Assembly: GCF_000014445.1 (NCBI RefSeq)
Contig: NC_008531.1
Span: 961,001 to 1,025,000, forward strand
Length of the DNA: 64,000 nucleotides
Direction of reading: 5' to 3'
Source of the DNA: Leuconostoc mesenteroides subsp. mesenteroides ATCC 8293
GTDB taxonomy: Bacteria; Bacillota; Bacilli; Lactobacillales; Lactobacillaceae
The notes under the pieces are model-generated. The model was not told the DNA's origin. It worked only from the letters and a program-made list of their open reading frames with translations, and did no database searches. Numbering within the stretch: position 1 is the first letter of the stretch; every line of letters starts with the position of its first letter. A program made the position numbers and the translations under genes. Positions 6,511 through 63,120 of the stretch are shown here, one piece after another.

Positions 6511-7389
6511 ATGGATTACAAGACATTAGCTAGTGGCATTGAGATGCCCTTACTGGGATTTGGTGTTTTTCAAGTTCAAGAAAAAGGGGCTGCCAAACAA
6601 GCAGTACTCGATGCCATCAAAACAGGTTATCGATTAATTGATACAGCGGCCAGTTATGGTAATGAGCGAGAAGTTGGCGAAGCGATTTTGGAAGCAATCA
6701 ATCAAGGCATAGTAAAACGTGAGGAATTATTCGTCACATCAAAGATGTGGGTTCAAGATGTTTCTGCACAGCAGGCAACTGCCGCCATCCAATCTTCATT
6801 ACAACGTTTAAATTTAGATTACTTAGATTTATACTTGATACACCAACCTTATAATGACGTATTTGGTGCGTGGCGAGCAATGGAATCTGCGTATCGATCC
6901 GGCCAGTTAAAAGCTATCGGGGTCTCAAATTTTGATATTGCACAGTTAACTAACTTAGCAGAGTTTTCAGATATAAAACCAATGCTAAACCAAATCGAGG
7001 TAAACCCATTTCAGCAAAATAAGAAGGACATTACGTACTTTAGTCAATACGGTGTTCAGGTCGAAGCTTGGGCACCATTTGCAGAAGGTAAAAATGATCT
7101 GTTTTCAAATATTCTACTGCGGAAAATTGCTGACAAGCATCATAAATCGATTGCACAAATTGTACTTCGTTGGCTAACACAACGAAATATCATAGTAGTT
7201 GCTAAATCTGTTAAGCCGGAAAGAATGGCGCAAAATCTTGACATTTTTGATTTTAAATTAACGCACCAAGAATTAGCAGAAATTGAAACATTAGATACGA
7301 ATAGTAGCCAGTTTTTTAATCATGCAGATCCGGACATGATTAAATGGATGGCTAACCGTGAAATTAGTTATGATGTTACATTTAACTAA
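6511..7389 (+). CDS. Aldo/keto reductase
   Basis: ATG 6511 follows AAGGAG at a good distance; an earlier in-frame ATG at 6481 lies at the promoter edge and is unlikely. The 292-residue product shows the catalytic tetrad in order: Asp and Tyr in LIDTAASYGNE, Lys in TSKMWVQD and His in YLIHQP. The C-terminal AKSVKPERMAQN is the NADPH-binding loop. Such enzymes reduce reactive aldehydes and ketones in the cytoplasm. The MerR-type promoter and the adjacent merR gene suggest an aldehyde or electrophile response, as in the AdhR system of Bacillus. Confidence 0.9.
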   Translation: MDYKTLASGIEMPLLGFGVFQVQEKGAAKQAVLDAIKTGYRLIDTAASYGNEREVGEAILEAINQGIVKREELFVTSKMWVQDVSAQQATAAIQSSLQRLNLDYLDLYLIHQPYNDVFGAWRAMESAYRSGQLKAIGVSNFDIAQLTNLAEFSDIKPMLNQIEVNPFQQNKKDITYFSQYGVQVEAWAPFAEGKNDLFSNILLRKIADKHHKSIAQIVLRWLTQRNIIVVAKSVKPERMAQNLDIFDFKLTHQELAEIETLDTNSSQFFNHADPDMIKWMANREISYDVTFN

Positions 7390-19496: not shown

Positions 19497-19642
19497 TGAA
19501 AGGGGCTATTCCAGTCCCCAAGATCATGCTTCATTACACCATCGTAACCGTAAAACATAAACAAAGGTTCATGTAACTAATTACGCGTGTCTTTTGACAG
19601 AGGTTGCAAAATAAGATATACTCGGTTAATAATTGAATAGTA

Positions 19643-19716
19643 AATAACTAGGGGCGCCAATTGGCTGAGAAGAACCCTTTGAACCTGAGATGGATAATGC
19701 CAGCGGAGGAAAGTGA
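19643..19716 (+). promoter_or_regulatory. TPP (THI-box) riboswitch
   Basis: The aptamer core is nearly consensus: ACTAGGGGCGCC, GGCTGAGAAGAACCC, TTGAACCTGAGATGGATAAT and GCCAGCGGAGGAAAGT in order. Thiamine pyrophosphate binding folds this region. The GCCAGCGG strand (19699-19706) is complementary to CCGCTGGC (19781-19788) in the terminator loop downstream, which offers an alternative pairing for transcription control. Confidence 0.93.
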
Positions 19717-19768
19717 ATTGTGTGATGCAACAGTAACTGGTTAGCAATACATATTTAAAGCAATTTTT

Positions 19769-46393: not shown

Positions 46394-46663
46394 ATATATT
46401 TAATGTTGTGTTCGAAGGATTAAATCAACATTTAGATATCTAAGAACAAAAAAAATTGGTAGCTTCTTTAAAGAGTTAGACGACACTATTGGACTTCGTT
46501 ATTTTATGTTAGATTTGCTCAAAGAACAGAAAAAGGTTTCAAAGCGGTTAAAAATAAGGTTGCCAAAAAAACTTTCACAAAGTCTTTGGAAGCCTTATTT
46601 TAATACCTGTTTTTTAAAATTTCACAAGTGTTTGAGTTTTAGACCAATTGCTATTTTAGGGTG
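46394..46663. other. Noncoding region carrying the shared TTCACAAG/GTTTTAGACCAATTGCT element
   Basis: No convincing gene is present. The element at 46621-46652 matches 40318-40349. It ends just before an extended -10 box (TGTTATATT, 46664-46672) that could drive the toxin transcript. Confidence 0.45.
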
Positions 46664-46770
46664 TGTTATATTAGTTAAAGCAATCAAGTTAAGACGGTGG
46701 CTATCCTGAATGGAGGTGGCGCTTATGGTGTAAACACTATAAACACACATTCTAGGAAAGGAGAGGCCTT

Positions 46771-46877
46771 GTGTCCATATCGGACGCGCTACTGGTCATG
46801 TTTGCCTTTGGTGGATTCATCATAAGCTTCTGACTTTTGTAGTTTTGTTAATCGAAAAAATTAGCAAAAAAAAATAA
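46771..46877 (+). pseudogene. Holin-like type I toxin, frameshifted
   Basis: GTG 46771 after AAAGGAGAGG opens MSISDALLVMFAFGGFIISF, the typical start of small 'holin-like' type I toxins, then hits TGA at 46831. One base back, the frame reads LTFVVLLIEKISKKK to TAA 46875, the expected C-terminal half with its Lys-rich tail. Loss of one C near 46829 explains the break. The original peptide would have 35 residues and one membrane helix. The 20-residue product left may be inactive. Confidence 0.75.
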
Positions 46878-51484: not shown

Positions 51485-52276
51485 ATGCAAAATTCAAAAA
51501 CGTATAAATTATACAAATCTGGTAAGCTCTGGGTTGTTGGGGCGGTTGCAGTAGCTGGTGTTGCTGTGAGTGCTAACACTACACAAGTCAGTGCCGATAC
51601 GGTTTCAAATGCTGATGCACAAGCTGTTAAAACTACTGATGCCACGCAAAATGACAAGCAAGCTCAATTAACTGCTTCATCAACTGATACAGCTACGGAC
51701 AAAGCGACAACTGATGATCCCACTAAATCTGCGACCGTTTCTTCAACTGCTGAAAAAAGCACAGTGCCAACAACTGCTGGTACAAGTGTCACGCAAGACC
51801 AAGCATCTGATGCAGTTGATAAGGCACAAGATACAGTAAAAGATGATGCTAAAACTGCATCTAATGCTGGTGTTGATGTCACAACTGGTAAAACAACTGA
51901 TGTCACAATCAGTGATGACGACGCTTCATCAAAAACAGATGAGGTTTTATCTGATTTGAATAAGCAAGACCAAGCTGTTAAAGATGCCACGGCAAAACAA
52001 CAAGCAAACGATCAGGCTTATCAAACGGCAACTACTGAAAAAACTGATGCCACTAAGCAAGGTCAAGCAGATTTGGACAATGCCACATCAGACCTTGATA
52101 AACAAGTTGATACTACTGAAAAAGCTGGTATTAAGGTAAACGTTGAAGTCGCACAATCTTCACCTGAATATAAGGACTTGTCTGGATTAGAGGGTCAAGA
52201 TTTGTTAGACGCAATGGCCTTAAAGTATAAACTTATAAGCATAAGGTGTGAAACAGGAGTTGAAATACTTCTGTAA
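51485..52276 (+). pseudogene. KxYKxGKxW-signal surface adhesin, truncated
   Basis: The N-terminus KTYKLYKSGKLWVVGAVAVA is the KxYKxGKxW-type signal peptide of large Leuconostoc/lactobacillar surface proteins and glucansucrases, with likely cleavage after VSAD. A Thr/Asp/Ala-rich linker and a helical EKAGIKVNVEV segment follow. Homology ends near 52230 in LKYK; the last 15 codons lie in the noncoding element that begins at 52235. Repeats and the wall anchor are missing. No promoter or ribosome site lies between the terminator and the ATG, so it is probably silent. Confidence 0.75.
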
Positions 52277-52620
52277 CATTCCTTGTGCTTATTCTTTTTG
52301 TCAAATACAAATAATTAATAAGAAAGTATTAACATTGAAAATAAGCACAAAAAACACAACTAGATTTACTAGCTGTGTTTCAGTACATTGAAAACTAAAT
52401 ATACTCTTGATTGATAAAATAATGCCTTCGACAACGTTATTAATGAGAATCAAAATTTAAAGTTATTTTCAATAACCTAATTTTATATGATTATCAACGA
52501 TCAATCAAGCGCAGGTACAGAGAGAAAAGTCTGGTACTGTGTTGAAGAAAATCATAAGACCGATGAGATGAGCACTTATAGTGGCATATAAGTTGCGCCT
52601 AAGGCTTATGTCGTGGAATA
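52235..52620 (+). ncRNA. Structured noncoding element A (upstream of a defence gene)
   Basis: It begins with a 12-bp stem ATAAGCATAAGG/CCTTGTGCTTAT enclosing a second stem ACAGGAG/CTTCTGT, then a T run. A hairpin AAACACA...TGTGTTT (52352-52380) follows, then GTACATTGAAAACTAAATATA-type sequence (52383-52403), GAGAGAAAAGTCTGGTA (52521-52537) and a hairpin ACTTATA/TATAAGT (52574-52593). Element B at 61064 has the same parts in the same order. G-U pairs work only for the plus strand. No open frame is present. The class is not recognised. Confidence 0.65.
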
Positions 52621-52765
52621 TCATAGGTGAGTGAAAAACTAAAAAATAAAAAGTGAGTTAATTAATAAAAAGAATGATATGAAACGTGCTATTTATTTGA
52701 ATGTCTCTATTATTACAAAACATATTGTTCTACAATATTCATAAAGTATATTATGGGGAAAATAG

Positions 52766-53947
52766 ATGACAATACGTGACATATTAGAGAAAATTCTAAA
52801 TAACTATTTACAAGAAAAAGACAAGTCTTTCAAAAATAACGAATTTGCTAGACTTTTGAGAAGTGGATTAAAAGAGGCAGTAAGTGATGATTTTCTAGCT
52901 GGAAATATCAGAACAAAGGGATCAGCAGGGAAAGGGAATTGGGCTACAGTTCCATGGATTGGTTTATTTGATGCAGCTATATCTACTTCTGCAACAAAAG
53001 GATTTGATATTGTTTACTTGTTTTCACCAGATATGAGTAGTGTTTATTTATCACTGAATCAAGGGTGGACCTTCTTTAATGATACGTACGGTAGAAATGA
53101 AAAAAACAACATTAGCAAAGTTTCAAGATATTGGCAAAGTACACTAGCTAATAGAACAGATCGTATGACAACTGAACCTATTGATCTAACTAGTTCTTTA
53201 CAAAATAAAAATAACTTAGTATCAGGTTATGAATTAGGAAATATTTTTAGTATCAAATATGATAGTGATAATTTACCCGATAACGATCAACTATTAATTG
53301 ACTTAAAAGATATGTTGTTTTGTTTAAATGAAATTAAAGCTGATTTAATTAATGAAAAAAATCTTCAGCAAAATATTGACTATATACTATCATTAGATTT
53401 GAACTTGAATCCATTGTTGAATAACAATAACATTAAAAAAATAGCTAAAAAAATACCAAAAATCGAGCTGACAGAAACTGACTCAAAAGTAAAAGAACCA
53501 GATAAAAAAGGCCGTACAATTGATTACGATGCACTCCAGAAACAGAACTCAATGATTGGATTTTTGGGCGAGGAAATTGTTTTGAAGTACGAAAAGAATA
53601 TATTAAGTAATGTTCCTGATTTATCCCAAAGAATTGAACACGTTTCCCAAACTAAAGGAGACGGCTTAGGGTATGATATTCTTTCTTTTGATAGCCAAGG
53701 AAATGAAATTTTTATTGAAGTAAAGACCACTACTCAAGGCAAAAACACACCATTTTATATGACTAGCAACGAAGTGAATTTTGCAAACAAGCATCCTGAT
53801 AATTATTTCCTATATAGAGTATATAATTTCGGTAATTTAGTAGAAATGAATAATATTGAATTCTTTAAAATAGCTGGCAGCCAAATGAAGAATATTGATT
53901 TGCAACCAGTAAGCTTTATGGCAAGTGCCAATTATATTGGTAGTTAA
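52766..53947 (+). CDS. McrB-N/DUF3883 domain defence protein
   Basis: The 393-residue protein has an N-terminal domain of the McrB N-terminal (DUF3578) type: KGSAGKGNWATVPWIGLFD, then KGFDIVYLFSPDMSSVYLSL. A Lys-rich linker leads to a C-terminal DUF3883-type domain (about residues 260-375) with GFLGEEIVL, GLGYDILSFD and the nuclease-like core EIFIEVKTTTQG, which carries the D...ExK pattern of PD-(D/E)xK folds. Such fusions sit in restriction loci and probably sense modified or foreign DNA. It is preceded by element A and followed by a KAP NTPase gene. Confidence 0.8.
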   Translation: MTIRDILEKILNNYLQEKDKSFKNNEFARLLRSGLKEAVSDDFLAGNIRTKGSAGKGNWATVPWIGLFDAAISTSATKGFDIVYLFSPDMSSVYLSLNQGWTFFNDTYGRNEKNNISKVSRYWQSTLANRTDRMTTEPIDLTSSLQNKNNLVSGYELGNIFSIKYDSDNLPDNDQLLIDLKDMLFCLNEIKADLINEKNLQQNIDYILSLDLNLNPLLNNNNIKKIAKKIPKIELTETDSKVKEPDKKGRTIDYDALQKQNSMIGFLGEEIVLKYEKNILSNVPDLSQRIEHVSQTKGDGLGYDILSFDSQGNEIFIEVKTTTQGKNTPFYMTSNEVNFANKHPDNYFLYRVYNFGNLVEMNNIEFFKIAGSQMKNIDLQPVSFMASANYIGS

Positions 53948-53998
53948 TTTACGCAATATTGATATAACAAAATACATTTAATGTTAGATGAGGAAAAA

Positions 53999-54946
53999 AT
54001 GTTCAATCCTGATGTTCCAATTAAATCATCCAATGATGATCTACTCGACAGAAAACAATTTGCTAAGCAGCTAGCTCGATCAATTTTAGATTATAAGCAG
54101 AGTGATAGTTTTAACATTGGCCTGTACGGCAAATGGGGATCTGGTAAAACTTCTGTGTTAAACATGACAGTGGAATACTTATTAGATTTAAGTAAAAATG
54201 ATGTAAACAAACCGGAAATTATTAGGTTCAATCCTTGGATGTTTACGGACGAAAGCCAATTAATTAATCAATTTTTCAAGCAACTTTCAAGCAATTTTAT
54301 AGGAAAAAAAGATAAAAAGAAATTAGGAGATCAATTACAAATATTAGGTGATGTTTTGGGATTAACAACGTTTGTCCCAGGAGTAGGGATTCTAGGTACA
54401 GCTGCCTCTAAATTACTAAATATTTTCGGAAAAACATTATCAAATAGTGCGCTAAATAAAAATATACAGAAAATTAAAGATGATTTAGTTTCTGAAATTA
54501 AAAAAAACAATATAAAATTTATTATTTTAATTGATGATATTGATCGGTTGTCAACTATCGATATCCAAAGTGTTTTTAAATTAGTCCAGTCTATTGCCGA
54601 TTTTCCTAATACCATTTACTTATTAGCTTTTGATTATGATATTGTAACTCGTGCTCTTGAAGAAGTTCAAAAAGATAATGGAGAAAGTTATTTAGAAAAA
54701 ATAATACAAACACCTTTTAATCTACCTGTAATTAGTGAAGTAAAAATAACGCAAATTTTTATTAGTGAATTGAATAAGATATTTAAAAACATACCAGAAG
54801 ATAAGTTTGATACTAATGCTTGGGCAGAACTTCTACATGGGAGCATAAGTTATTATCTTCAATCATTAAGAGATTTAGCGAGATTAAATAACACTATCGG
54901 ATCTGGTGCAAACAGTGTGAGAGATGACCATCTAACCAGCTATTGA
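53999..54946 (+). pseudogene. KAP family P-loop NTPase, 3' truncated by an IS6 remnant
   Basis: ATG 53999 follows GATGAGG. Walker A is GLYGKWGSGKTSVLN near residue 43, KAP-specific FNPWMFTDESQL follows, and Walker B is FIILIDDIDRLS near residue 180, then LLAFDYDIV. KAP NTPases are often larger than 500 residues and membrane-linked; one part near residue 125 (VPGVGILGTAASKLL) is hydrophobic. Homology stops around 54930 where the IS6 fragment begins, so the C-terminal half is lost. The context suggests a role in phage defence. Confidence 0.8.
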
Positions 54947-55416
54947 TCAGTGACTAATCGATCAGGCCGACCATTGGTCGTCAAGAGACGCTTCAAAAAG
55001 TGATAGGATGCGGTATAATCGCGGTGTTTTCGTAGCTCAAAATCCATGGTCAAACCGTTACTGTCAATAGCGCGATACAAATAGGCCCAACGGCCTTTAA
55101 CTCGAATATAGGTCTCATCGATTCGCCAACTTTTAGCGTGAGCTGTTTGATGCCGACGCCATAGAGCCTTAAAGATGGGGCCATAGTGATGAACCCAACG
55201 CATGACCGTGGTGTGATGAACAGTGATACCCCGATCCCGAAGCAATTCAACGATGTCACGATAGCTGAGACTGAATCTGAAATAGTAGCCAACGGCTACT
55301 AAGATGATGTCCTTTTGAAAGTGGCGTCCCTTAAAGTGATTCATGCGCGCAATCCCTCGTTTCTTGGCACCCAGTATACTAAAATCAAGTCAGCGAGGAA
55401 AATTTGCACCAGAACC
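54930..55416 (-). mobile_element. IS6-family element, truncated
   Basis: The outer end reads GGTTCTGGTGCAAATTTTCC on the minus strand (55416 inwards), a typical IS6/IS26-type terminus. The transposase is cut after about 134 codons at the KAP gene junction, and the other terminus is missing. Confidence 0.85.
54940..55344 (-). pseudogene. IS6-family transposase, N-terminal 134 residues
   Basis: MNHFKGRHFQKDIILVAVGY, the RFSLSYRDIVELL helix-turn-helix and WRIDETYIRVKGRWAYLYRA, with the first catalytic Asp, identify an IS6 (ISS1/IS1216-like) transposase. It ends at LVTDQ, just where the second catalytic Asp lies, instead of at about 226 residues. Confidence 0.88.
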
Positions 55417-55481
55417 GAAATAAGCTATATGTAGAATTTGTTGCGATATCGTAACAGTAGTTATGAAGAAATTAATTCAAC

Positions 55482-55520
55482 TAAATAAGCCGACCGTCAA
55501 GTATACGATCGGCTTATTTA
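55482..55520 (-). terminator. Bidirectional hairpin terminator
   Basis: TAAATAAGCCGA pairs perfectly with TCGGCTTATTTA around a 15-base loop. It lies after the leftward RNase H-like gene. Confidence 0.75.
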
Positions 55521-55554
55521 TGTCCAAAATGACTGAGAGGAAATGAGTTCGATT

Positions 55555-56001
55555 TTATAGCTTCGTCATCACCGCCGTTAGCGTAGTCGTTGCGGTGGTC
55601 ATCGCGGGATCGTCCACGGGGTGGTAGGTGATGGTGAGGTTGGGAAATTCTTCGATAATGGGAATCAGCGTTTGCCATTGGGGTAGGTCTGGTTGGTCGG
55701 CTTCGGGAACGTCCCAGTTGTTTTGCTGCCAGCTTAAATAACGTTGTTCGCTAATAACCGCCGCCACTTGTTCAGTTGTGGTGTGAATATGAACGGGTAA
55801 ATCATGACGTTTCAACGTGGCGAGTGCGGTGGTCAGAGCACTCAAGGCCAGTGAAGTTTCGGTATGTCCGTAGCCACCGTCGTTTAGCGCTTTTTGATGG
55901 TCAGCATATCTCAGAATGACGACCCAGGCAGCGGGGGTTGTTGCGGTGATGTTGGTCGATTGGTGGTTGGTACTTGCAAGGTAAAGATGAATCGTAGCCA
56001 T
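55555..56001 (-). CDS. RNase H-fold protein lacking catalytic acids
   Basis: The 148-residue protein aligns by pattern to RNase HI: PAAWVVILRYADHQKALNDG (first hairpin), HTETSLALSALTTALATLKR (helix A with its Glu), PVHIHTTTEQVAAVIS (where active enzymes have T-D-S), and ITYHPVDDPAM. The first Asp (usually in a YTDGA motif) is replaced by YLAST, and the second Asp by Thr, so nuclease activity is unlikely. GGAGG precedes the ATG on the minus strand. It is visibly G+C-richer than the flanking island, as is the whole cassette to 60146. Confidence 0.65.
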   Translation of the reverse strand: MATIHLYLASTNHQSTNITATTPAAWVVILRYADHQKALNDGGYGHTETSLALSALTTALATLKRHDLPVHIHTTTEQVAAVISEQRYLSWQQNNWDVPEADQPDLPQWQTLIPIIEEFPNLTITYHPVDDPAMTTATTTLTAVMTKL

Positions 56002-56238
56002 TGTTGGGGCCTCCTTAGTGGTAATGATAATCCATTGAGTGGTTCATCTAATAGCTTTGTAAAAACTAGCCAGCTTCATTTTAAATTAATGAATAATTTT
56101 AATGTGAAACTACAATAGTTACAAAATTTAGTGAATTGCCGGTGCGTATTACTATGATTTTTGGCGGATTATGCTACGATTAAATACATGGATAATTAAG
56201 AAGTTATTAAGCAATAAAGGTGAGCACTGGAGGTTAGC

Positions 56239-57765
56239 ATGCAGACATTAATACAGACGTTTATAGATCGACGCGGGGATTTGCTGACTGCGCTATGGCA
56301 ACACTTGGGGATTTCATTAGCATCATTAGTCATCGCAATGGTAATTGCGATTCCGTTGGCTATTTGGGTCGTTCGACGACCACGGTGTGCCGAGGGATTA
56401 TTACAGCTCACGAGTGTCTTACAGACGATTCCGTCTTTGGCACTGTTAGGGTTATTGATTCCGTTAGTTGGGATTGGAACGGTGCCAGCAGTAATTGCGC
56501 TGGTGATCTATGCTTTACTGCCAATTTTTCAAAATACTTATTTGGGTATCTCAGAAATTGACGCCTCAATTGAAGAGACCGCCGATGCCTTTGGGATGTC
56601 ACGAATGCGTAAGTTGTTTAAAGTTGAACTACCCATTGCCCTACCACAGATCATTTCTGGGATTCGGACCGCGCTCGTCTTAATTATTGGGACGGCTACT
56701 TTGGCCGCTTTGATTGGTGCTGGGGGTCTCGGGACCTTTATCATGCTCGGTATTGACCGTAATGATACCTCGTTATTATTGATTGGGGCTATCTCATCAG
56801 CATTGTTAGCAATTCTGCTGAGTGCGCTCGTTCGGTGGTTTCAAACGGCTAAACCACGCCACGCCTTAATTGTCTTTGTCGGTATTTTAGCTTTACTAGG
56901 TGGTGGCGGGGCTTATAGTGTTTATGCCAATCGAGTTGAAACAATTACGATTGCAGGTAAACTCGGTTCTGAACCAGAAATCTTGATTAATATGTATAAG
57001 CAGCTGATTGAAGCTGAAGATGAGCATGTTCATGTGACGCTCAAGCCTAACTTTGGCAAGACCACGTTCTTATTCAGCGCGTTAAAGAATAATCAGGTTG
57101 ATATTTATCCTGAATTTACTGGCTCGGTGCTGGAGACCTTAGGTAAGGGGAATAACCCAGCTGGTCAAACAGCTAACCAGACCTATCAGCTCGCCAAACA
57201 GCGCCTCGCTAAACAGGAACAAATGACTTACTTGAAGCCGATGCAGTATAACAATACGTACGCATTGGCAGTGACTAAGAAATTTCAACAAGAACATCAT
57301 TTGAAGACAATCAGCGACTTAACGCAAGTTGAATCGATTCTGAAACCCGGAATGACCCTAGAGTTTATTGATCGTAATGATGGCTTAAAAGGAATCAAGA
57401 AGACTTATGGGTTAGACGTGACTGCAAAGTCGATGGAGCCGGCGCTACGCTATGAAGCTATCAGTAAGGGGAAAATCAACTTGGTAGATGCCTATGCGAC
57501 GGATAGTGAATTACGGCAGTATCACTTGGCCTTATTGAAGGATAACAAGCACTTCTTCCCAACGTATCAAGGGGCACCGTTGATGAAGACGAGCTTTGCC
57601 AACAAACATCCTAAGGTCGTTAAAGCGTTGAATAAGTTAGCAGGAAAGATTTCAGAAACTGATATGCAAGAAATGAACTATGAAGTCAATGTTAAGAAGC
57701 AGTCCGCTTCGACGGTTGCACATCGCTATCTTGTGAAGCACGGTTTATTGAAGGAGGGACGTTAA
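56239..57765 (+). CDS. Osmoprotectant ABC transporter, fused permease and substrate-binding protein
   Basis: The 508-residue protein is a two-domain fusion. Residues 1-215 are a permease with about six helices and the inner-membrane loop ETADAFGMSRMRKLFKVELPIALP. After a seventh hydrophobic segment (IVFVGILALLGGGGAYSVYA), residues 235-505 form a binding protein with GKLGSEPEILINMYKQLIE and VDIYPEFTGSVLETL. This is the OpuB/OpuC-like class for choline, carnitine or glycine betaine. TGGAGG precedes the ATG. The ATPase gene follows without a gap. Confidence 0.9.
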   Translation: MQTLIQTFIDRRGDLLTALWQHLGISLASLVIAMVIAIPLAIWVVRRPRCAEGLLQLTSVLQTIPSLALLGLLIPLVGIGTVPAVIALVIYALLPIFQNTYLGISEIDASIEETADAFGMSRMRKLFKVELPIALPQIISGIRTALVLIIGTATLAALIGAGGLGTFIMLGIDRNDTSLLLIGAISSALLAILLSALVRWFQTAKPRHALIVFVGILALLGGGGAYSVYANRVETITIAGKLGSEPEILINMYKQLIEAEDEHVHVTLKPNFGKTTFLFSALKNNQVDIYPEFTGSVLETLGKGNNPAGQTANQTYQLAKQRLAKQEQMTYLKPMQYNNTYALAVTKKFQQEHHLKTISDLTQVESILKPGMTLEFIDRNDGLKGIKKTYGLDVTAKSMEPALRYEAISKGKINLVDAYATDSELRQYHLALLKDNKHFFPTYQGAPLMKTSFANKHPKVVKALNKLAGKISETDMQEMNYEVNVKKQSASTVAHRYLVKHGLLKEGR

Positions 57766-58737
57766 ATGACAACGGCAATTGAATTTCAACACGTCCAGAA
57801 AGACTTTAATGGGCAGACCGTGATTCCCGACCTTAATTTAACGATTGACCAGGGTGAGCTATTTATTTTGGTAGGGACTTCTGGGAGTGGCAAAACGACG
57901 TCACTTAAAATGATCAACTGCTTAGAGCCATTGACGGCTGGTAAAATCCTAGTTAATGGTACTGATACAACCACGATACCAGTCCGAAGTCTACGGTGGC
58001 AAATGGGGTATGTCTTACAGCAAATTGCCTTGTTCCCAACGATGACGGTGGCGCAAAATATCGCCGTGATTCCAGAAATGAAAGGGACAGCTAAGAAGGA
58101 AATTAATCAAACGATTGATGAGCTATTGGCGGAAGTTGGCCTCGATCCAAAGGAATACCGTGACCGGATGCCGTCAGAATTATCCGGTGGTGAGCAGCAA
58201 CGCATCGGTATCTTACGGGCGATTGCGGCGCAACCAGATATTGTTTTGATGGATGAACCATTTAGTGCGTTAGACCCCATCTCGCGGCAACAATTGCAAG
58301 ACTTGGTCTTACGGCTACACGCCCGCTATCACAACACGATCGTCTTCGTGACGCATGATATGAATGAGGCGTTGAAGTTGGGTGACCGGATCGGTGTCAT
58401 GCAACACGGTCAGTTAATACAAGTCGATACGCCGGCTGCTCTGGCTCAGCATCCAGTGAACGACTTTGTGCGGAACTTCTTTGGCGCGAGCCGAGCTAAA
58501 AATGTCTATGATGTCTACGTTGGGCGTGTAGGGCTTATTCAGGGTTATCTCACAGAAAAACCCAGTGTTGCGAGTGGTCGGATTCAATCGTTAGACGTTC
58601 AAGCCACGTTACGCACCGCCTTTACGGCATTGACAGATCACGATTATGTGGCGGTCACGGAAGAAAATCGGGTTGTTGGCTATTTGGATAGCCAACGAAT
58701 CGTGGCTTACTTGAGTCAACATGAAGAAGTATCTTAA
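57766..58737 (+). CDS. Osmoprotectant ABC transporter ATP-binding protein (ProV/OpuCA-like)
   Basis: The 323-residue ATPase has Walker A GTSGSGKTTSL near residue 36, the signature LSGGEQQRIG, Walker B IVLMDEP and the switch His in VTHDM. The last ~70 residues (LDVQATLRTAFTALTDHDYV, then VVGYLDSQRIVAYL) look like a CBS-type module, common in these ATPases for ionic-strength or nucleotide sensing. Its ATG directly follows the upstream stop; it energises the fused permease. Confidence 0.92.
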   Translation: MTTAIEFQHVQKDFNGQTVIPDLNLTIDQGELFILVGTSGSGKTTSLKMINCLEPLTAGKILVNGTDTTTIPVRSLRWQMGYVLQQIALFPTMTVAQNIAVIPEMKGTAKKEINQTIDELLAEVGLDPKEYRDRMPSELSGGEQQRIGILRAIAAQPDIVLMDEPFSALDPISRQQLQDLVLRLHARYHNTIVFVTHDMNEALKLGDRIGVMQHGQLIQVDTPAALAQHPVNDFVRNFFGASRAKNVYDVYVGRVGLIQGYLTEKPSVASGRIQSLDVQATLRTAFTALTDHDYVAVTEENRVVGYLDSQRIVAYLSQHEEVS

Positions 58738-58814
58738 TCGTCAATTAAGGATGAATCAGTTACACTAGGTTGTGATAATTGATGGTCGCTAATGAATTTA
58801 AGGAGGAATTTCGA

Positions 58815-60146
58815 ATGGCGGAACAGTACGATGTTGTTGTGATTGGTGGTGGACCAGCCGGCAATGCCATGGCTAGCGGATTAAAGGCTCAGGGCAAGAC
58901 AGTGTTGATCGTTGAAGCGGATCTGTGGGGCGGCACTTGTCCTAACCGCGGTTGTGACCCTAAGAAAATCCTATTAAGCGCCGTCGAAGCGCGACAAGCA
59001 GCGCAACATTTACAAGGGCAGGGCCTGATTGGTGCGCCCAAAATTGATTGGCCAGCACTGATGGCGCTTAAACGAGGCTATACGGATGGCATCAACGATG
59101 GGACGTTGAACGGACTAAAGGGGCAAGATATTGCGACGTTACATGGTCAAGCGCACTTTCAATCCGACAATCAGTTAGCGGTCGGGGATCGAGTAGTCAG
59201 TGCGACTGATTACGTGATTGCCACTGGTCAGCGTCCGGCGATTCTACCGATTACCGGGCACGAATACTTTAAGACGAGCACTGACTTCTTAGATTTGGAC
59301 CAGATGCCTAAACGCGTGACATTCGTAGGTGGTGGCTACGTAGGCTTTGAATTGGCGACGATTGCGAATGCCGCTGGCGCTGATGTGCACGTGATTCATC
59401 ATAATGACCGCCCGTTAAAAGCTTTTGATGCAGATTTGGTTAAGGATTTGATGGCCGCAATGACGGCTGATGGAATCACGTTTGACTTGAATACGGATGT
59501 CCAAGCAATTACTAAAACGGCGACCGGTCTACAATTGACAGCTGATAATTTCGAGCTGACAACGGATCTGGTCATCAGCTCAGCGGGACGGATTCCGAAC
59601 GCGGACCAGTTAGGTCTAGCCAACGTGGGCGTTACCTTTGATCGGCATGGGATTCAAGTCAACGATCATTTGCAGACGGCCAACCCGCACATTTATGCCA
59701 TTGGGGATGTCAGCGATACACCGGTACCGAAGTTAACGCCAGTTGCAGGTTTTGAAGCGCGTTATCTGGTCGGTGAGTTGACGCATCCCGGCGCAGCCAT
59801 AAAGTATCCCGTTGTGCCAACGCAGGTTTTTGCAGCGCCCAAGTTAGCGCAAGTCGGGATCAGCGCGGCCGCGGCGACTGAGCATCCAGATGAGTATCGT
59901 GTCAATACACTTGATATGACGAAGTGGTTCACTTATTACCGCTTTGGCGCACAACAAGCCCAAGCTAAAGTAGTGGTTGCTAAAGCGAGTGGGCAGGTTG
60001 TGGGTGCTACCCTTCTAAGTGATGTTGCCGACGAGATGATTAACTACTTCACGTTGTTAATTGAAAAACACGTGACTTTACCAGATTTACAACGGTTGGT
60101 ATTGGCTTACCCAACGCCGGCTAGTGACTTACAATATTTGTATTAA
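58815..60146 (+). CDS. Class I pyridine nucleotide-disulfide oxidoreductase (glutathione reductase-like)
   Basis: ATG 58815 follows AGGAGG; an ATG at 58782 is weaker. The 443-residue flavoprotein has the FAD loop VIGGGPAGNAMASGL, the redox pair in WGGTCPNRGCDPKK, the NADPH loop VGGGYVGFELATIA and the second FAD motif HIYAIGDV. The C-terminal dimerisation domain lacks the usual His-x-x-x-x-Glu dyad that I can recognise (VLAYPTPASDLQ), so glutathione reductase activity is uncertain. It is likely a low-molecular thiol or disulfide reductase. It travels with the osmoprotectant transporter in this cassette. Confidence 0.85.
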   Translation: MAEQYDVVVIGGGPAGNAMASGLKAQGKTVLIVEADLWGGTCPNRGCDPKKILLSAVEARQAAQHLQGQGLIGAPKIDWPALMALKRGYTDGINDGTLNGLKGQDIATLHGQAHFQSDNQLAVGDRVVSATDYVIATGQRPAILPITGHEYFKTSTDFLDLDQMPKRVTFVGGGYVGFELATIANAAGADVHVIHHNDRPLKAFDADLVKDLMAAMTADGITFDLNTDVQAITKTATGLQLTADNFELTTDLVISSAGRIPNADQLGLANVGVTFDRHGIQVNDHLQTANPHIYAIGDVSDTPVPKLTPVAGFEARYLVGELTHPGAAIKYPVVPTQVFAAPKLAQVGISAAAATEHPDEYRVNTLDMTKWFTYYRFGAQQAQAKVVVAKASGQVVGATLLSDVADEMINYFTLLIEKHVTLPDLQRLVLAYPTPASDLQYLY

Positions 60147-60239
60147 TGTGTGGTTGAATTAAATCAACGTCCTCGCAAAGTGTTAAACTATGAAACCCCA
60201 TATGAAGTATTTTTTGACAAACCGTTGCACTTAGTTTGA
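60147..60239 (+). mobile_element. IS30-family transposase, C-terminal remnant
   Basis: The last 30 codons read VVELNQRPRKVLNYETPYEV ending FFDKPLHLV*, the typical C-terminus of IS30 transposases (LN-x-RPRK-x-L-x-x-x-TPYE). It lies immediately after the oxidoreductase gene and marks the right edge of the imported cassette. Confidence 0.85.
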
Positions 60240-60262
60240 CAATTCGCCGGAAGTAAAAAGCC

Positions 60263-60439
60263 TTTGACAAATTAGCAATGCCAGATGATCTGGACGACAG
60301 TGTTAGAGAGCAAGCTATTGAAAAATTAAAAAATTCAAATAGTGAAATTTCAGCAACGGAGGAGTTGAATGATAACTATCACATTGGCCCATATTATTTG
60401 ATGGTAAATGTCTTTGGGAAAAATACATCAATAAGTTGA
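60263..60439 (+). pseudogene. mcrB 3'-end remnant
   Basis: The frame reads FDKLAMPDDLDDSVREQAIE and later ATEELNDNYHIGPYYL without a start codon. It resembles the C-terminal end of McrB-type AAA+ GTPases, where a HIG-x-x-YF motif closes the protein. After YYL it runs into mcrC sequence in another frame and stops at 60437. Confidence 0.6.
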
Positions 60440-60912
60440 TAAGGGAAATTTTCTATCATCTAAAAAATAAGTCAGGTATCGATGCGCAGCAATTATTTTC
60501 AAAAAGCAACAATTTTTCCAAAATTGGACGAATTTATCCTGATTTTATTAGTAAAAATAGTAACAAAAGAATAATAGCAGACGCTAAATATAAACCCATT
60601 AAGAACATTGCAAATAAAGACTATTTACAAGTTTTGGCATATATGTTTCGATTTAATGCCAAAATGGGGTTTTACATTTATCCAGCAAACAACAACGAAT
60701 CAGAATCAGATCCTGAATCCAAAATGTATTTGAACGAAGGAACCACTTTTGAAAATAATGTGAAGCATCAAGAAGATATTATTATCACAAAATTGGGTTT
60801 GATAATACCGGACAATAAGGGTTTAACATATTATGAGTTTTCTCAAGAAATGAAATTGAACGAAACCCAACTTGTAAAATCGATAATTAATGATCAAGAT
60901 GTTGGCTACTAA
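60391..60912 (+). pseudogene. mcrC 3' part (McrBC-type restriction nuclease subunit)
   Basis: The frame reads FDGKCLWEKYINKLI and then YPDFISKNSNKRIIADAKYK, the PD-(D/E)xK nuclease core of McrC (PD...DAK), with the supporting YLQVLAYMFRF. The N-terminal two thirds of McrC are missing; a deletion around 60391-60397 joined it to the mcrB end. A TTG at 60436 could start a 158-residue product holding the nuclease core. The intact system would cut modified DNA with GTP. Confidence 0.75.
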
Positions 60913-61063
60913 TTACTTTTATTCTGATCTAAAGTAAAGTATAGATATCCTACTACGCACTTGGTAAAATATCAGTATTTCACTAACTACAGATCGCATA
61001 CTTTTTGGTACGTGAACATTAGATTATTTGTTACTTTGGGGGTTGACCGGAGTCTGTAGAATA
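60913..61063. other. Noncoding spacer before element B
   Basis: No gene is visible. ATCAGTATTTCACTAACTA at about 60970-60988 is a short sequence related to one at 29485-29502. TTGACC at 61043 could be a -35 box for element B, but no good -10 follows. Confidence 0.3.
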
Positions 61064-61515
61064 ATAAGCATAAGGTTTGATATGGGAGCTGAAATGCTTC
61101 TGTAACATACCTTGTGCTTATATTTTTGTCAAAAAGGCTTATTTTATTAAGAAAACCTAAAAAATGCAAAAAAGCACAAAAAAAGACCAGCCAGTGGCTA
61201 GTCGATTATGTACTTTGAAAACTAGATATAAAAATTGATTACTATAAAAATAATGTCCCCACGACCTTATTAAAAAAATCAAATTTGCTTAACTAATCTT
61301 CAATAAGATAATTGTAAAGTATTTTGTGAATTATAGCAATCATGGTTGGCTATGTATTAGCTAACTCGGAGCCTCTAAAAGAGTGAAGAGAGAACAGTCT
61401 AGTATGGTTACGACAATCAACGTAATTTGTTACTCCGTTAGAAAAAATCACAGTACCGATGCGATGTGTAATATTTATTAGCGGATTTATTACACCAAAG
61501 GCTCTGTGTCAATGT
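61064..61515 (+). ncRNA. Structured noncoding element B (upstream of abiH)
   Basis: It has the same plan as element A: outer stem ATAAGCATAAGG/CCTTGTGCTTAT (61064-61121), inner stem ATGGGAGC/GCTTCTGT, T run, hairpin GACCAGCC/GGCTAGTC (61185-61203), GTACTTTGAAAACTAGATATA-type sequence (61210-61230), GAGAGAACAGTCTAGTA, and hairpin TGTAATA/TATTACA (61467-61494). Arm sequences differ from A while pairing is kept. Length is about 450 nt versus 390 for A. It ends about 200 bases before the AbiH gene. The RNA class is not recognised. Confidence 0.65.
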
Positions 61516-61711
61516 AAAACAAGACCTGTGAAAATTAATAAATTTATTCAGAGAATTAATTATTATATTTTGTTTAACATTGTGCTTGATTAAATAGCAG
61601 TAAATAGTGTCCCCAAATATGTTGAAGTATCATAATAATTAATTCATTAATACTTTTCAATTCATATCTACAAGAGTATAATCTTTGTAAAATAATGGTG
61701 GTCCTATAAGT

Positions 61712-62857
61712 ATGCAACGTGAAGAACAATTAATTATTATTGGAAATGGCTTTGATTTAAATAACGGTCTAAACAGTTCATTTAAAGATTTTTTTGAATG
61801 GGTAAATACTGGTTTAGATGAAACATCGCAACGTGTTTGGAATTCTAATTTTTGGAATGAAGTATTTCAAGTAGTTAAGCTATCTGATCCAACTTGGTTC
61901 GATGTAGAAAAGCAAATTGGTGGAGTTATCAAATATTTGCAGCAAGAATTTGCAAGAGAAGAATATTTAAAACCTACTTTTAAAGATGACTTTGGCCATG
62001 TCAAATCAGGACTTTTTCGTCACATAATAGAAAAATCGGAGAAAATTTATTTTTCAGCTGAATATGATACAAATCTAACACTTAATCAAAGTATTCTTCA
62101 CTTGATTGCTACAAATGCTAACTTTATAGGTGATGTTAGAAGGCTGCCTACATCGGTTGATGAAATTATGAAATCTCTGTTTTCTCAACTAACTTATCTT
62201 GAAAAATTACTTAATATGTATTTATTACAAGAAATTGATAAAAATCCAGAGTACTCAAAAATAACTCAGCAAAAGATTTTTACTCTATCCAAATTAGCAA
62301 TTGATAAATCTGATTATAGGGTTAAAGTTTTATCTTTTAACTATACTCCTATTAAATTTGATCCTGATACACATACTTTACCAATTATTGTAAAAAATGT
62401 TCATGGTGAATTAACACCTGCTGTTAGGGGCGACTCTAATATTATATTGGGTATTGATCAATCTTTGTTGTTTAGTGATGGAAATGTACAGTTTTCAATC
62501 GTTGAGTTCACTAAAACGTATAGAACTTTATTCCTTCAAAAACATGTTACTGTTACTGAAAGTTCGTTCATAAACAAGCACATTAAAGTTGTCAAGTTTT
62601 ACGGCCACTCGCTTGGTTCTGCTGATTATTCTTACTTTCAGTCAATTTTTGATGAATTGGATATTTATAATCGAGAAGTCTACTTGTTTTTTTATTATTC
62701 TAATTATGATGAAGTTGACAGAGGACCCGAACAATATGAAAGAGTTTATCAACTTATGTCTGACTATGGTATGTCTATGCAGAATGTTTCTCAAGGTAAA
62801 AATCTTCTGCATAAAATGCAGTTAGAAAACAGAATTTCAATAACGCCATTAACGTAG
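61712..62857 (+). CDS. AbiH family abortive-infection protein
   Basis: The 381-residue protein has the AbiH pattern: LIIIGNGFDLNNGLNSSFKDFFEW at the N-terminus (nucleotide-binding-like GNGFD), VLSFNYTPI and NVHGEL in the middle, and KVVKFYGHSLGSADYSYFQSIFD towards the end. AbiH proteins abort phage infection in lactococci; the mechanism is not established, though the motifs recall SIR2-like NAD-binding folds. It stands alone after element B. The ribosome site is poor (GGTGG). Confidence 0.88.
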   Translation: MQREEQLIIIGNGFDLNNGLNSSFKDFFEWVNTGLDETSQRVWNSNFWNEVFQVVKLSDPTWFDVEKQIGGVIKYLQQEFAREEYLKPTFKDDFGHVKSGLFRHIIEKSEKIYFSAEYDTNLTLNQSILHLIATNANFIGDVRRLPTSVDEIMKSLFSQLTYLEKLLNMYLLQEIDKNPEYSKITQQKIFTLSKLAIDKSDYRVKVLSFNYTPIKFDPDTHTLPIIVKNVHGELTPAVRGDSNIILGIDQSLLFSDGNVQFSIVEFTKTYRTLFLQKHVTVTESSFINKHIKVVKFYGHSLGSADYSYFQSIFDELDIYNREVYLFFYYSNYDEVDRGPEQYERVYQLMSDYGMSMQNVSQGKNLLHKMQLENRISITPLT

Positions 62858-62910: not shown

Positions 62911-62938
62911 TGAAAACGACGACGTTTTTGCTTTTTTA
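62911..62938 (+). terminator. Rho-independent terminator after abiH
   Basis: AAAACG pairs with CGTTTT around a four-base loop; TGC and six T follow. Confidence 0.65.
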
Positions 62939-62970
62939 TTTGGAATTAAGAAAAAATAGGATTTCACATC

Positions 62971-63120
62971 ATGGTTAATAAGTTTGGTAAGTTTATCACT
63001 ACAAGTAAAAGTACCGGAAAGCTCACATTTGCTGAGTGTAATTTAGTTGGTGCTAATGCAGTTATTGCCAAAAAAGAATGTACTTTGTGTGAATTTTTTG
63101 ATTTAAATACTGAAACATAA
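62971..63120 (+). CDS. Possible small protein, 49 residues
   Basis: ATG 62971 lies nine bases after TAGGA and opens MVNKFGKFITTSKSTGKLTF, ending at TAA 63118 after KKECTLCEFFDLNTET. A C-x-x-C pair is present. The family is not recognised and it could be chance. Confidence 0.3.
   Translation: MVNKFGKFITTSKSTGKLTFAECNLVGANAVIAKKECTLCEFFDLNTET

Follow-up and report, generated by a model that had tools for sequence, protein, structure and literature searches.

In a 64,000-nucleotide stretch of the Leuconostoc mesenteroides subsp. mesenteroides ATCC 8293 genome (contig NC_008531.1, positions 961,001 to 1,025,000; the window), two related elements, A and B, belong to a real, previously undescribed family of covarying structured RNAs encoded on the plus strand. 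The recurrent partner of this RNA is a conjugation operon and not any defence gene. We read the RNA as the 5′ leader of that operon, most likely a cis-acting processive-antitermination RNA with a boxB-boxA site of the ribosomal RNA (rRNA) type, and its hosts as a family of Tn916/ICEBs1-type conjugative elements in Leuconostoc and Weissella; we assign this reading a probability of roughly 0.6.

An earlier note on this DNA, made from the sequence alone, had described A and B as two copies of a structured RNA with a shared order of parts, each just upstream of a phage-defence gene. Both elements were located where the note had placed them, their resemblance and their structure were confirmed, and the nested stem, the second hairpin, the GAGAGAANAGTCTNG line and the 3′ hairpin were all found in both copies. 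Pairwise alignment of the whole regions gave 74% mean column identity, and a search of the whole genome with A returned A and B as the sole two matches, B with 72% identity over 251 bp (expectation value E 4e-26); across the 5′ half the likeness is 72-73%. The real span of the RNA, roughly 480 bases, exceeds the one given earlier and adds a two-tier hairpin and a CGTGCYA line (approximate spans in Table 1). At the left edge, likeness of A to nine other A-like copies begins at 52215-52219. At the right edge it stops at 52612-52717 in seven of these nine copies and at 52508 in a truncated one (locus L043), and in L045 it continues through the cargo gene.

Folding and covariation support a conserved RNA. 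The nested double stem P1 reaches -29.3 kcal/mol in A and -31.2 kcal/mol in B (z -7.7 and -8.5), values that none of 200 shuffled sequences equalled, and the second hairpin has z values of -4.7 (A) and -3.0 (B). Across 26 distinct copies, standard pairs make up 97.2% of P1 and the basal part of the second hairpin, and 11 of 25 pairs show two-sided changes, in an alignment that was fitted to the structure and hence favours it. None of 500 shuffles matched the observed values, and sliding the partner columns by 1 to 3 positions left 29-52% of them paired. The mispairs comprise 61 G-U cells, 6 A-C cells and 11 other mismatches, all drawn from related sequences and so not independent events. As G-U is far better tolerated than A-C, the plus-strand RNA is the conserved form, which upholds what had been argued earlier from the G-U pairs. 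The compensatory changes reported for the two copies were likewise borne out, as the 5′ helices covary and the 3′ hairpin P4 alters its sequence yet still pairs. Exchange of hand-picked arms between copies weakened the second hairpin, the arms of which vary and still pair, from a native mean of -9.9 to -4.3 kcal/mol; for the two-tier hairpin P5, the values changed from -3.7 to -0.5 kcal/mol (inner) and from -4.9 to -1.2 kcal/mol (outer). Swapped pairs that equalled or exceeded the stability of the worse native one numbered 5/54 for the second hairpin, 9/66 for P1 inner, 13/88 for P5 outer, 23/106 for P5 inner, 8/20 for P1 outer and 16/40 for P4, where the test is weak. A pairing of AGTCT with AAGGCT was dropped because a second copy in L045 breaks it.

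The conserved TTGAAAACTA line of the RNA is an rRNA signal. In the own genome, a hairpin precedes GCACATTGAAAACTGAAC in the 16S leader and GTACATTGAAAACTGAATAG in the 16S-23S spacer. Exact GTACNTTGAAAACT occurs at only five places in the 2.08-Mb genome, namely A, B and three rRNA spacers, the fourth spacer being masked; one mismatch admits eight further sites, four rRNA leaders among them. The hairpin stands directly upstream of boxA in the RNA; in rRNA, as judged by eye, it stands a few bases upstream, and other Leuconostoc rRNA operons retain this order. The rRNA comparison is confined to Leuconostoc, as boxA could not be read in Weissella, where the spacer consists of N, and no 16S gene was found in W. 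oryzae. Fifteen of 29 copies of the RNA contain exact GTACNTTGAAAACT, six have one mismatch (including W. oryzae L086) and eight are worse or lack it. The hairpin with GTACATTGAAAACT reads as an rRNA-type boxB-boxA site; we take this sequence to be boxA in Gram-positive bacteria, as its place in the rRNA operons supports.

Searches with B against 298 related genomes, and with a covariance model of the 5′ domain against 398 genomes and against 19 genomes of the genus, revealed the RNA at 20 loci in 11 of these 19 Leuconostoc genomes. Outside them, copies were found in Leuconostoc fallax KCTC 3537 (G025), a Weissella-like genome (G150) and Weissella oryzae SG25 (G346). The model matched in 14 of the 398 genomes; of the 25 genomes listed in the search with B, those whose similarity amounted to no more than short stretches at E around 1e-3 to 1e-5 were regarded as chance findings and set aside. 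The copies fall into A-like, B-like and third-type classes, with one chimera and some truncated copies. In L. fallax (L041), three copies, one of them partial, lie within 10 kb at 7249, 11700 and 16550 with other genes after each, and one precedes RloC/PrrC-like fragments (by eye). A lone 3′ half of the RNA stands upstream of a Tmn-like gene (L045:10761-10962) and likewise upstream of an McrB-like gene (L050); the 3′ half may be functional by itself.

What follows the RNA most regularly is a gene for conjugative transfer. In W. oryzae, a gene starting MINAFKSLSLLG comes directly after the RNA, at about 450 nt, in two copies and is succeeded by surface proteins and conjugation genes, while a third copy stops at the contig end. 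A search for relatives of this gene (MVNKF...) found 46 proteins at E up to 0.001, with all sources shown being Leuconostoc or W. oryzae; in Leuconostoc, they are encoded downstream of the RNA, mostly behind cargo. This first transfer gene lies on the same strand and within 11.3 kb of the RNA start in 15 of the 20 genus loci, split or broken in four of them (G009:3604, G010, G011 and G018:C433). The five loci without it are A, G012:1858359, G018:C887, G016:981859 with a truncated RNA, and G001:1550009. The gene or its remains occurred in 11 of 11 RNA-bearing genomes versus 1 of 8 RNA-free ones, there as a 29-residue fragment (Fisher p 1.6e-4). B heads an apparently continuous operon that extends past the window, where its intact first transfer gene is found (G000:C2:1027503-1028282). 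A belongs to a scrambled copy; to its left lies a broken surface gene (KxYKxGKxW by eye) that has its relatives among the surface genes of the conjugative element.

In the operon of the own genome, Pfam comparisons identified KxYKxGKxW, CHAP/lysozyme and AAA_10 proteins (the last VirB4-like, E 3e-93). The operon of G001 was found to encode TcpC (3e-22), a Rep_trans relaxase (9e-25) and, as a weak match, an FtsK-like protein, and that of W. oryzae Rep_trans. The gene set of Tn916/ICEBs1-type elements, namely Rep_trans relaxase, TcpC, VirB4-like ATPase and cell-wall hydrolase, was thus found across these three genomes, different genes being scanned in each. Tn916 has a similar relaxase and TcpC-type machinery. 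The predicted structure of the first transfer gene product (mean predicted local distance difference test score, pLDDT, 79.5) resembles single-stranded DNA-binding proteins with an oligonucleotide/oligosaccharide-binding (OB) fold, at low template-modelling (TM) scores. Its assignment as a DUF961 protein was rejected (profile comparison probability 0.7%); DUF961 had no match in the 11 genus genomes shown, and the OB-fold gene occupies its place. No integrase was recognised by eye among the listed starts of open reading frames, a survey made without an integrase profile. IS30-type transposases and a RepA_N gene lie near the transfer region, and at L101:12838-14834 the relaxase and an IS30-like transposase are followed by a RepA_N replication initiator and a gene for a single-stranded DNA-binding protein; plasmid-like replication of the element is possible.

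The genes named earlier as neighbours were correct: MrcB_N with NOV_C, which we take to be the former DUF3883, follows A, and AbiH follows B. However, the association with defence genes is indirect, as the downstream genes vary by locus. At least nine unrelated families were found there: MrcB_N/NOV_C, AbiH, type I restriction, type II methyltransferase, Tmn, AbiU/AIPR with SIR2, retron I-C, Dsr1-like SIR2 and TrlF/Ppl-like, in addition to some genes without a family match. Thirteen of the 20 genus loci have a gene of a defence family no more than 5 kb downstream; direct scans showed this for 11, and identity of the sequence starts for two (a retron at G018:C887 and type I restriction at G014). 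The remaining seven comprise three loci without a family match (L035, L036, L039), one with DUF3990 (L042), one with an unscanned protein (L033) and two that are truncated or degenerate (L043, L040). Among single nearby upstream genes, one per locus, 1 of 10 matched a defence family, namely HerA beside a SIR2-like gene (by eye); this control is not like for like, as several downstream genes were examined and the upstream gene was not always the nearest. Both W. oryzae copies with readable downstream sequence lead into the conjugation operon without a defence gene. On our reading, defence genes are cargo inserted behind the leader and ahead of the first transfer gene, and for this reason the RNA appears to precede phage-defence genes.

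A regulatory leader of the defence genes themselves, an attenuator or sensor that detects infection and controls the next gene, would suit the 13 of 20 loci against the 1 of 10 upstream genes, unequal as that comparison is, and the stability of P1, a 5′-terminal stem with a U-run. We consider it unlikely, because the cargo differs in both family and distance, several loci begin with genes that match no defence family, both readable W. oryzae copies lead to transfer genes only, and the RNA tracks the transfer gene. The constant protein partner that accompanies type III toxin-antitoxin, abiF-type and retron RNAs was not seen among the at least nine unrelated cargo families. Of the proposal that the RNA is a partner or leader of defence genes, the leader-like position stands, whereas the guide, sensor and antitoxin partner are not supported, and a defence-specific RNA partner was rejected on the grounds of variable cargo and the two W. 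oryzae copies without a defence gene. Cargo proteins without a family match above the cut-off in the libraries searched are encoded by the first gene of L036 and L039 (220 amino acids), in L035 (280 amino acids) and on the minus strand in L038 (472 amino acids); they are candidates for unknown defence genes. Just upstream of B, an open frame at window positions 60436-60912 resembles the nuclease part of McrC (by eye).

If the RNA is an antitermination leader, it would be transcribed as a single RNA. P1 with its U-run resembles an intrinsic terminator and may shield the operon from outside transcription. The second hairpin and GTACATTGAAAACT appear to copy the host rRNA boxB-boxA site, and there RNA polymerase would acquire an antitermination complex of the rRNA type, made up of NusB and S10 together with NusA and NusG; in E. 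coli, boxA binds NusB-S10, as described in the text of PMC4807359. The modified polymerase would then cross the cargo and the intrinsic terminators within the transfer genes, and the defence genes would be cargo of the element.

Terminator-like hairpins are indeed present in the operons. A simple scan of six transfer-operon stretches (87 kb) found 19 strong ones on the same strand, 11 of them inside genes, and three on the opposite strand; six control stretches (101 kb) contained 10 on both strands, including one within a gene of matching orientation. One hairpin, inside a gene of about 150 codons, recurs in four related elements. An independent scan of the element of the own genome (L095) counted 21 terminators on both strands versus 8.9 expected.

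Several observations weigh against the antitermination leader. The in-gene terminator common to four elements may reflect related coding sequence. In the scanned part of the W. oryzae operon, the 10 terminators do not differ significantly from the 7.1 expected (standard deviation, sd, 3.0), and a terminator closing the W. oryzae leader was not supported. P1 is terminator-like by eye, but the terminator scan did not call it in A, B or W. oryzae, and since P1 lies upstream of boxA, boxA cannot aid read-through of P1. The second hairpin has a double use as a minus-strand terminator, so that the boxB hairpin could itself serve insulation. No promoter was found for the whole RNA, with no plus-strand match just before P1; promoter-like matches on both strands numbered 6 around A versus 4.2 expected (sd 2.1) and 9 around B versus 5.0 (sd 2.9). 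Some loci seem, by eye, to have their own promoters for cargo genes. Read-through of intrinsic terminators by nothing more than an rRNA boxA is not an established effect; for E. coli, the text of PMC4807359 discusses boxA in connection with Rho-dependent termination. The 13 sites found for GTACNTTGAAAACT with up to one mismatch equal the count of a reversed-pattern control, and that list alone is no evidence. BoxA is two bases off in W. oryzae L087 and L088, and three or more bases off in L040, L084 and L085; L041c, L049 and L050, which are partial copies, lack it. Finally, 28 loci around DUF961 genes, which belong to other conjugative elements in the family, yielded five short boxA-like matches and no evident hairpin-boxA leader within 1.5 kb on each side as judged by eye; boxA leaders were thus not found to be a general trait of such elements.

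Some of these observations would fit a plain insulator made of back-to-back terminators, P1 on the plus strand and the second hairpin on the minus strand, with boxA left over from rRNA-derived sequence and no antitermination. The terminator scan called only minus-strand hairpins, among them the second hairpin with its minus-strand T-run in A, B and W. oryzae, and terminator T1 of Tn916 is such an insulator according to the main text of PMC11658703. Insulation alone, however, would not keep boxA and a 3′ domain with GAGAGAANAGTCT, P4 and P5; moreover, the tolerance of G-U indicates a plus-strand RNA, and the plus-strand half of such an insulator, P1, was not called. We regard this explanation as slightly less probable than the regulatory leader of defence genes.

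That the sequence serves the mobile element as a structured DNA site, such as an end, an origin of transfer (oriT) or a single-strand origin, and not as an RNA seems improbable to us. Such a site would account for the sharp left end near 52219 across loci with different flanks, often abutting ends of IS30-family elements, and would suit a first transfer gene with a predicted single-stranded DNA-binding fold. A DNA site would, however, hardly show 61 G-U versus 6 A-C cells or contain boxA, an RNA signal in rRNA; in this relaxase class, oriT adjoins the relaxase gene, and here that gene is located at the opposite end of the operon. A free trans-acting small RNA of the conjugative element (guide, antitoxin or sponge), which its size, elaborate fold and the seemingly separate promoters of some cargo genes (by eye) might suggest, is the least probable explanation, given the lack of a fixed protein partner, the cis position heading one operon and the lack of a called plus-strand terminator near the 3′ end of A or B.

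Taken together, the evidence fits a processive-antitermination leader, for which known systems offer precedents. The conjugative element Tn916 carries canT, a cis-acting and processive RNA of 452 nt, together with the insulating terminator T1 and terminators in the operon, one within orf15 (main text of PMC11658703). The RNA described here is similar in its size of about 450 nt, its predicted structure, its position before a conjugation operon and the terminators in that operon, including one inside a gene. It differs in that P1 precedes boxA in one unit, whereas the Tn916 antiterminator comes to lie upstream of T1 only after circularisation, and in that boxA is unmentioned in the main text of PMC11658703, the comparison with canT being one of descriptions and not of sequences. 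In pLS20, the conAn2 RNA and the ConAn1 protein antiterminate the conjugation operon (PMC8955417, as described there); this system likewise opens its long conjugation operon, which contains many intrinsic terminators, with an RNA but relies on the ConAn1 partner, for a relative of which no search was made here, and it was also compared by description. The put RNA of HK022 and the EAR RNA of the eps operon resemble our RNA as cis-acting processive-antitermination RNAs (described in PMC8955417 and PMC11658703); neither is among the Rfam matches listed for A and B, their presence in Rfam being unchecked. The rRNA leader and spacer sites share the order of hairpin and boxA, and the 14-base boxA of A equals that of the host 16S-23S spacer; unlike them, the site described here precedes transfer genes that encode proteins and forms part of a larger and unrelated fold.

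At gathering thresholds, no Rfam family was found on A or B, nor on L033-L040, where only PreQ1 matched, elsewhere. The suggestion that the size would fit RNAs of the ROOL/GOLLD type thus found no support; permissive scans with E up to 10 showed neither among the five sub-threshold matches listed per element, all to unrelated families, the best of which was sau-19 on the nested stem of B (26.7 bits versus a cut-off of 80, E 0.016). A group I or II intron was rejected for lack of an Rfam match, the likeness of GAGACTATA...GATATAGTC to what we take to be intron core letters being one by eye only. The RNA had no match on deposited plasmids, phages or IMG/VR contigs, one of these searches being made with a single exact 19-base pattern. 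Among the literature matches listed for boxA and conjugative elements, Leuconostoc conjugative elements and RNA, and DUF961 and antitermination, the titles and abstract openings contain no description of such an RNA, subscription papers lying outside the coverage.

Table 1. Positions of the RNA elements, their parts and the neighbouring genes in the 64,000-nucleotide window.
Feature	Position	Strand	Details	Evidence
Element A, entire leader-like RNA region	52219..52692	+	nhmmer of 3′ part: 52393-52711	copy comparison
A, nested double stem P1 and U-run	52235..52299	+	outer arms 52235-52246/52281-52292; inner arms 52253-52260/52267-52274	fold z -7.7, covariation
A, boxB-like hairpin	52353..52379	+	arms 52353-52363/52369-52379; also minus-strand terminator-like hairpin	
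A, boxA GTACATTGAAAACT	52383..52396	+	same letters as 16S-23S spacer of own genome	
A, conserved line GAGAGAAAAGTCT	52520..52532	+		
A, 3′ hairpin P4 and CCTAAGG	52572..52604	+	arms 52572-52580/52587-52596	
A, two-tier variable hairpin P5, then CGTGC	52618..52689	+	outer arms 52618-52624/52674-52680	
Cargo of A, MrcB_N and NOV_C protein	52766..53947	+		PDC-S36, E 1.7e-45
Cargo of A, KAP NTPase (PifA-like)	53981..54946	+		PifA, E 1.9e-64
Element B, entire leader-like RNA region	61043..61592	+		copy comparison, nhmmer
B, nested double stem P1 and U-run	61064..61127	+	outer arms 61064-61075/61110-61121; inner arms 61082-61089/61096-61103	fold z -8.5, covariation
B, boxB-like hairpin	61185..61203	+	arms 61185-61192/61196-61203; also minus-strand terminator-like hairpin	
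B, boxA GTACTTTGAAAACT	61210..61223	+		
B, conserved line GAGAGAACAGTCT	61388..61400	+		
B, 3′ hairpin P4	61467..61495	+		
Cargo of B, AbiH	61712..62857	+		PF14253, E 9.4e-22
Degenerate start of first transfer gene (MVNK family) after AbiH	62924..63117	+		

Different insertion-sequence ends, mostly ending in TTGAC or TTGCA, are found at window positions 61019-61047 and at the left RNA end in L033-L038, L041a, L042 and L044-L047. They meet the RNA at about the same base, 17-18 bases 5′ of P1, which may reflect target preference or hitch-hiking, and IS30-like transposase domains were identified in two scanned genes. Only two features of the window exceed the Rfam gathering score, both away from A and B: a thiamine pyrophosphate (TPP) riboswitch at 19640-19728 and an rli28 match at 46657-46857 (56.3 bits), downstream of a citrate-type transporter gene (named by eye). 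In a related genome (L043), a truncated element A is located behind the same transporter gene.

The finding recasts a supposed defence RNA as a gene-transfer leader and adds a covarying RNA family absent from the copy of Rfam searched. Its novelty lies in the rRNA-type boxB-boxA within an antitermination leader of the conjugation type. Whether these RNAs form a new class, carried by mobile elements and mimicking the antitermination site of rRNA, so that the element borrows the rRNA transcription machinery of its host to cross its own terminators and places defence genes in the first slot of the operon, we judge to be evenly balanced. If true, defence cargo and transfer genes could be read as one terminator-proof transcript, and the leader would mark a cargo slot where known as well as unknown defence genes can be sought. 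For lactic acid bacteria, such a leader would tie conjugation directly to rRNA antitermination, in a way that can be tested.

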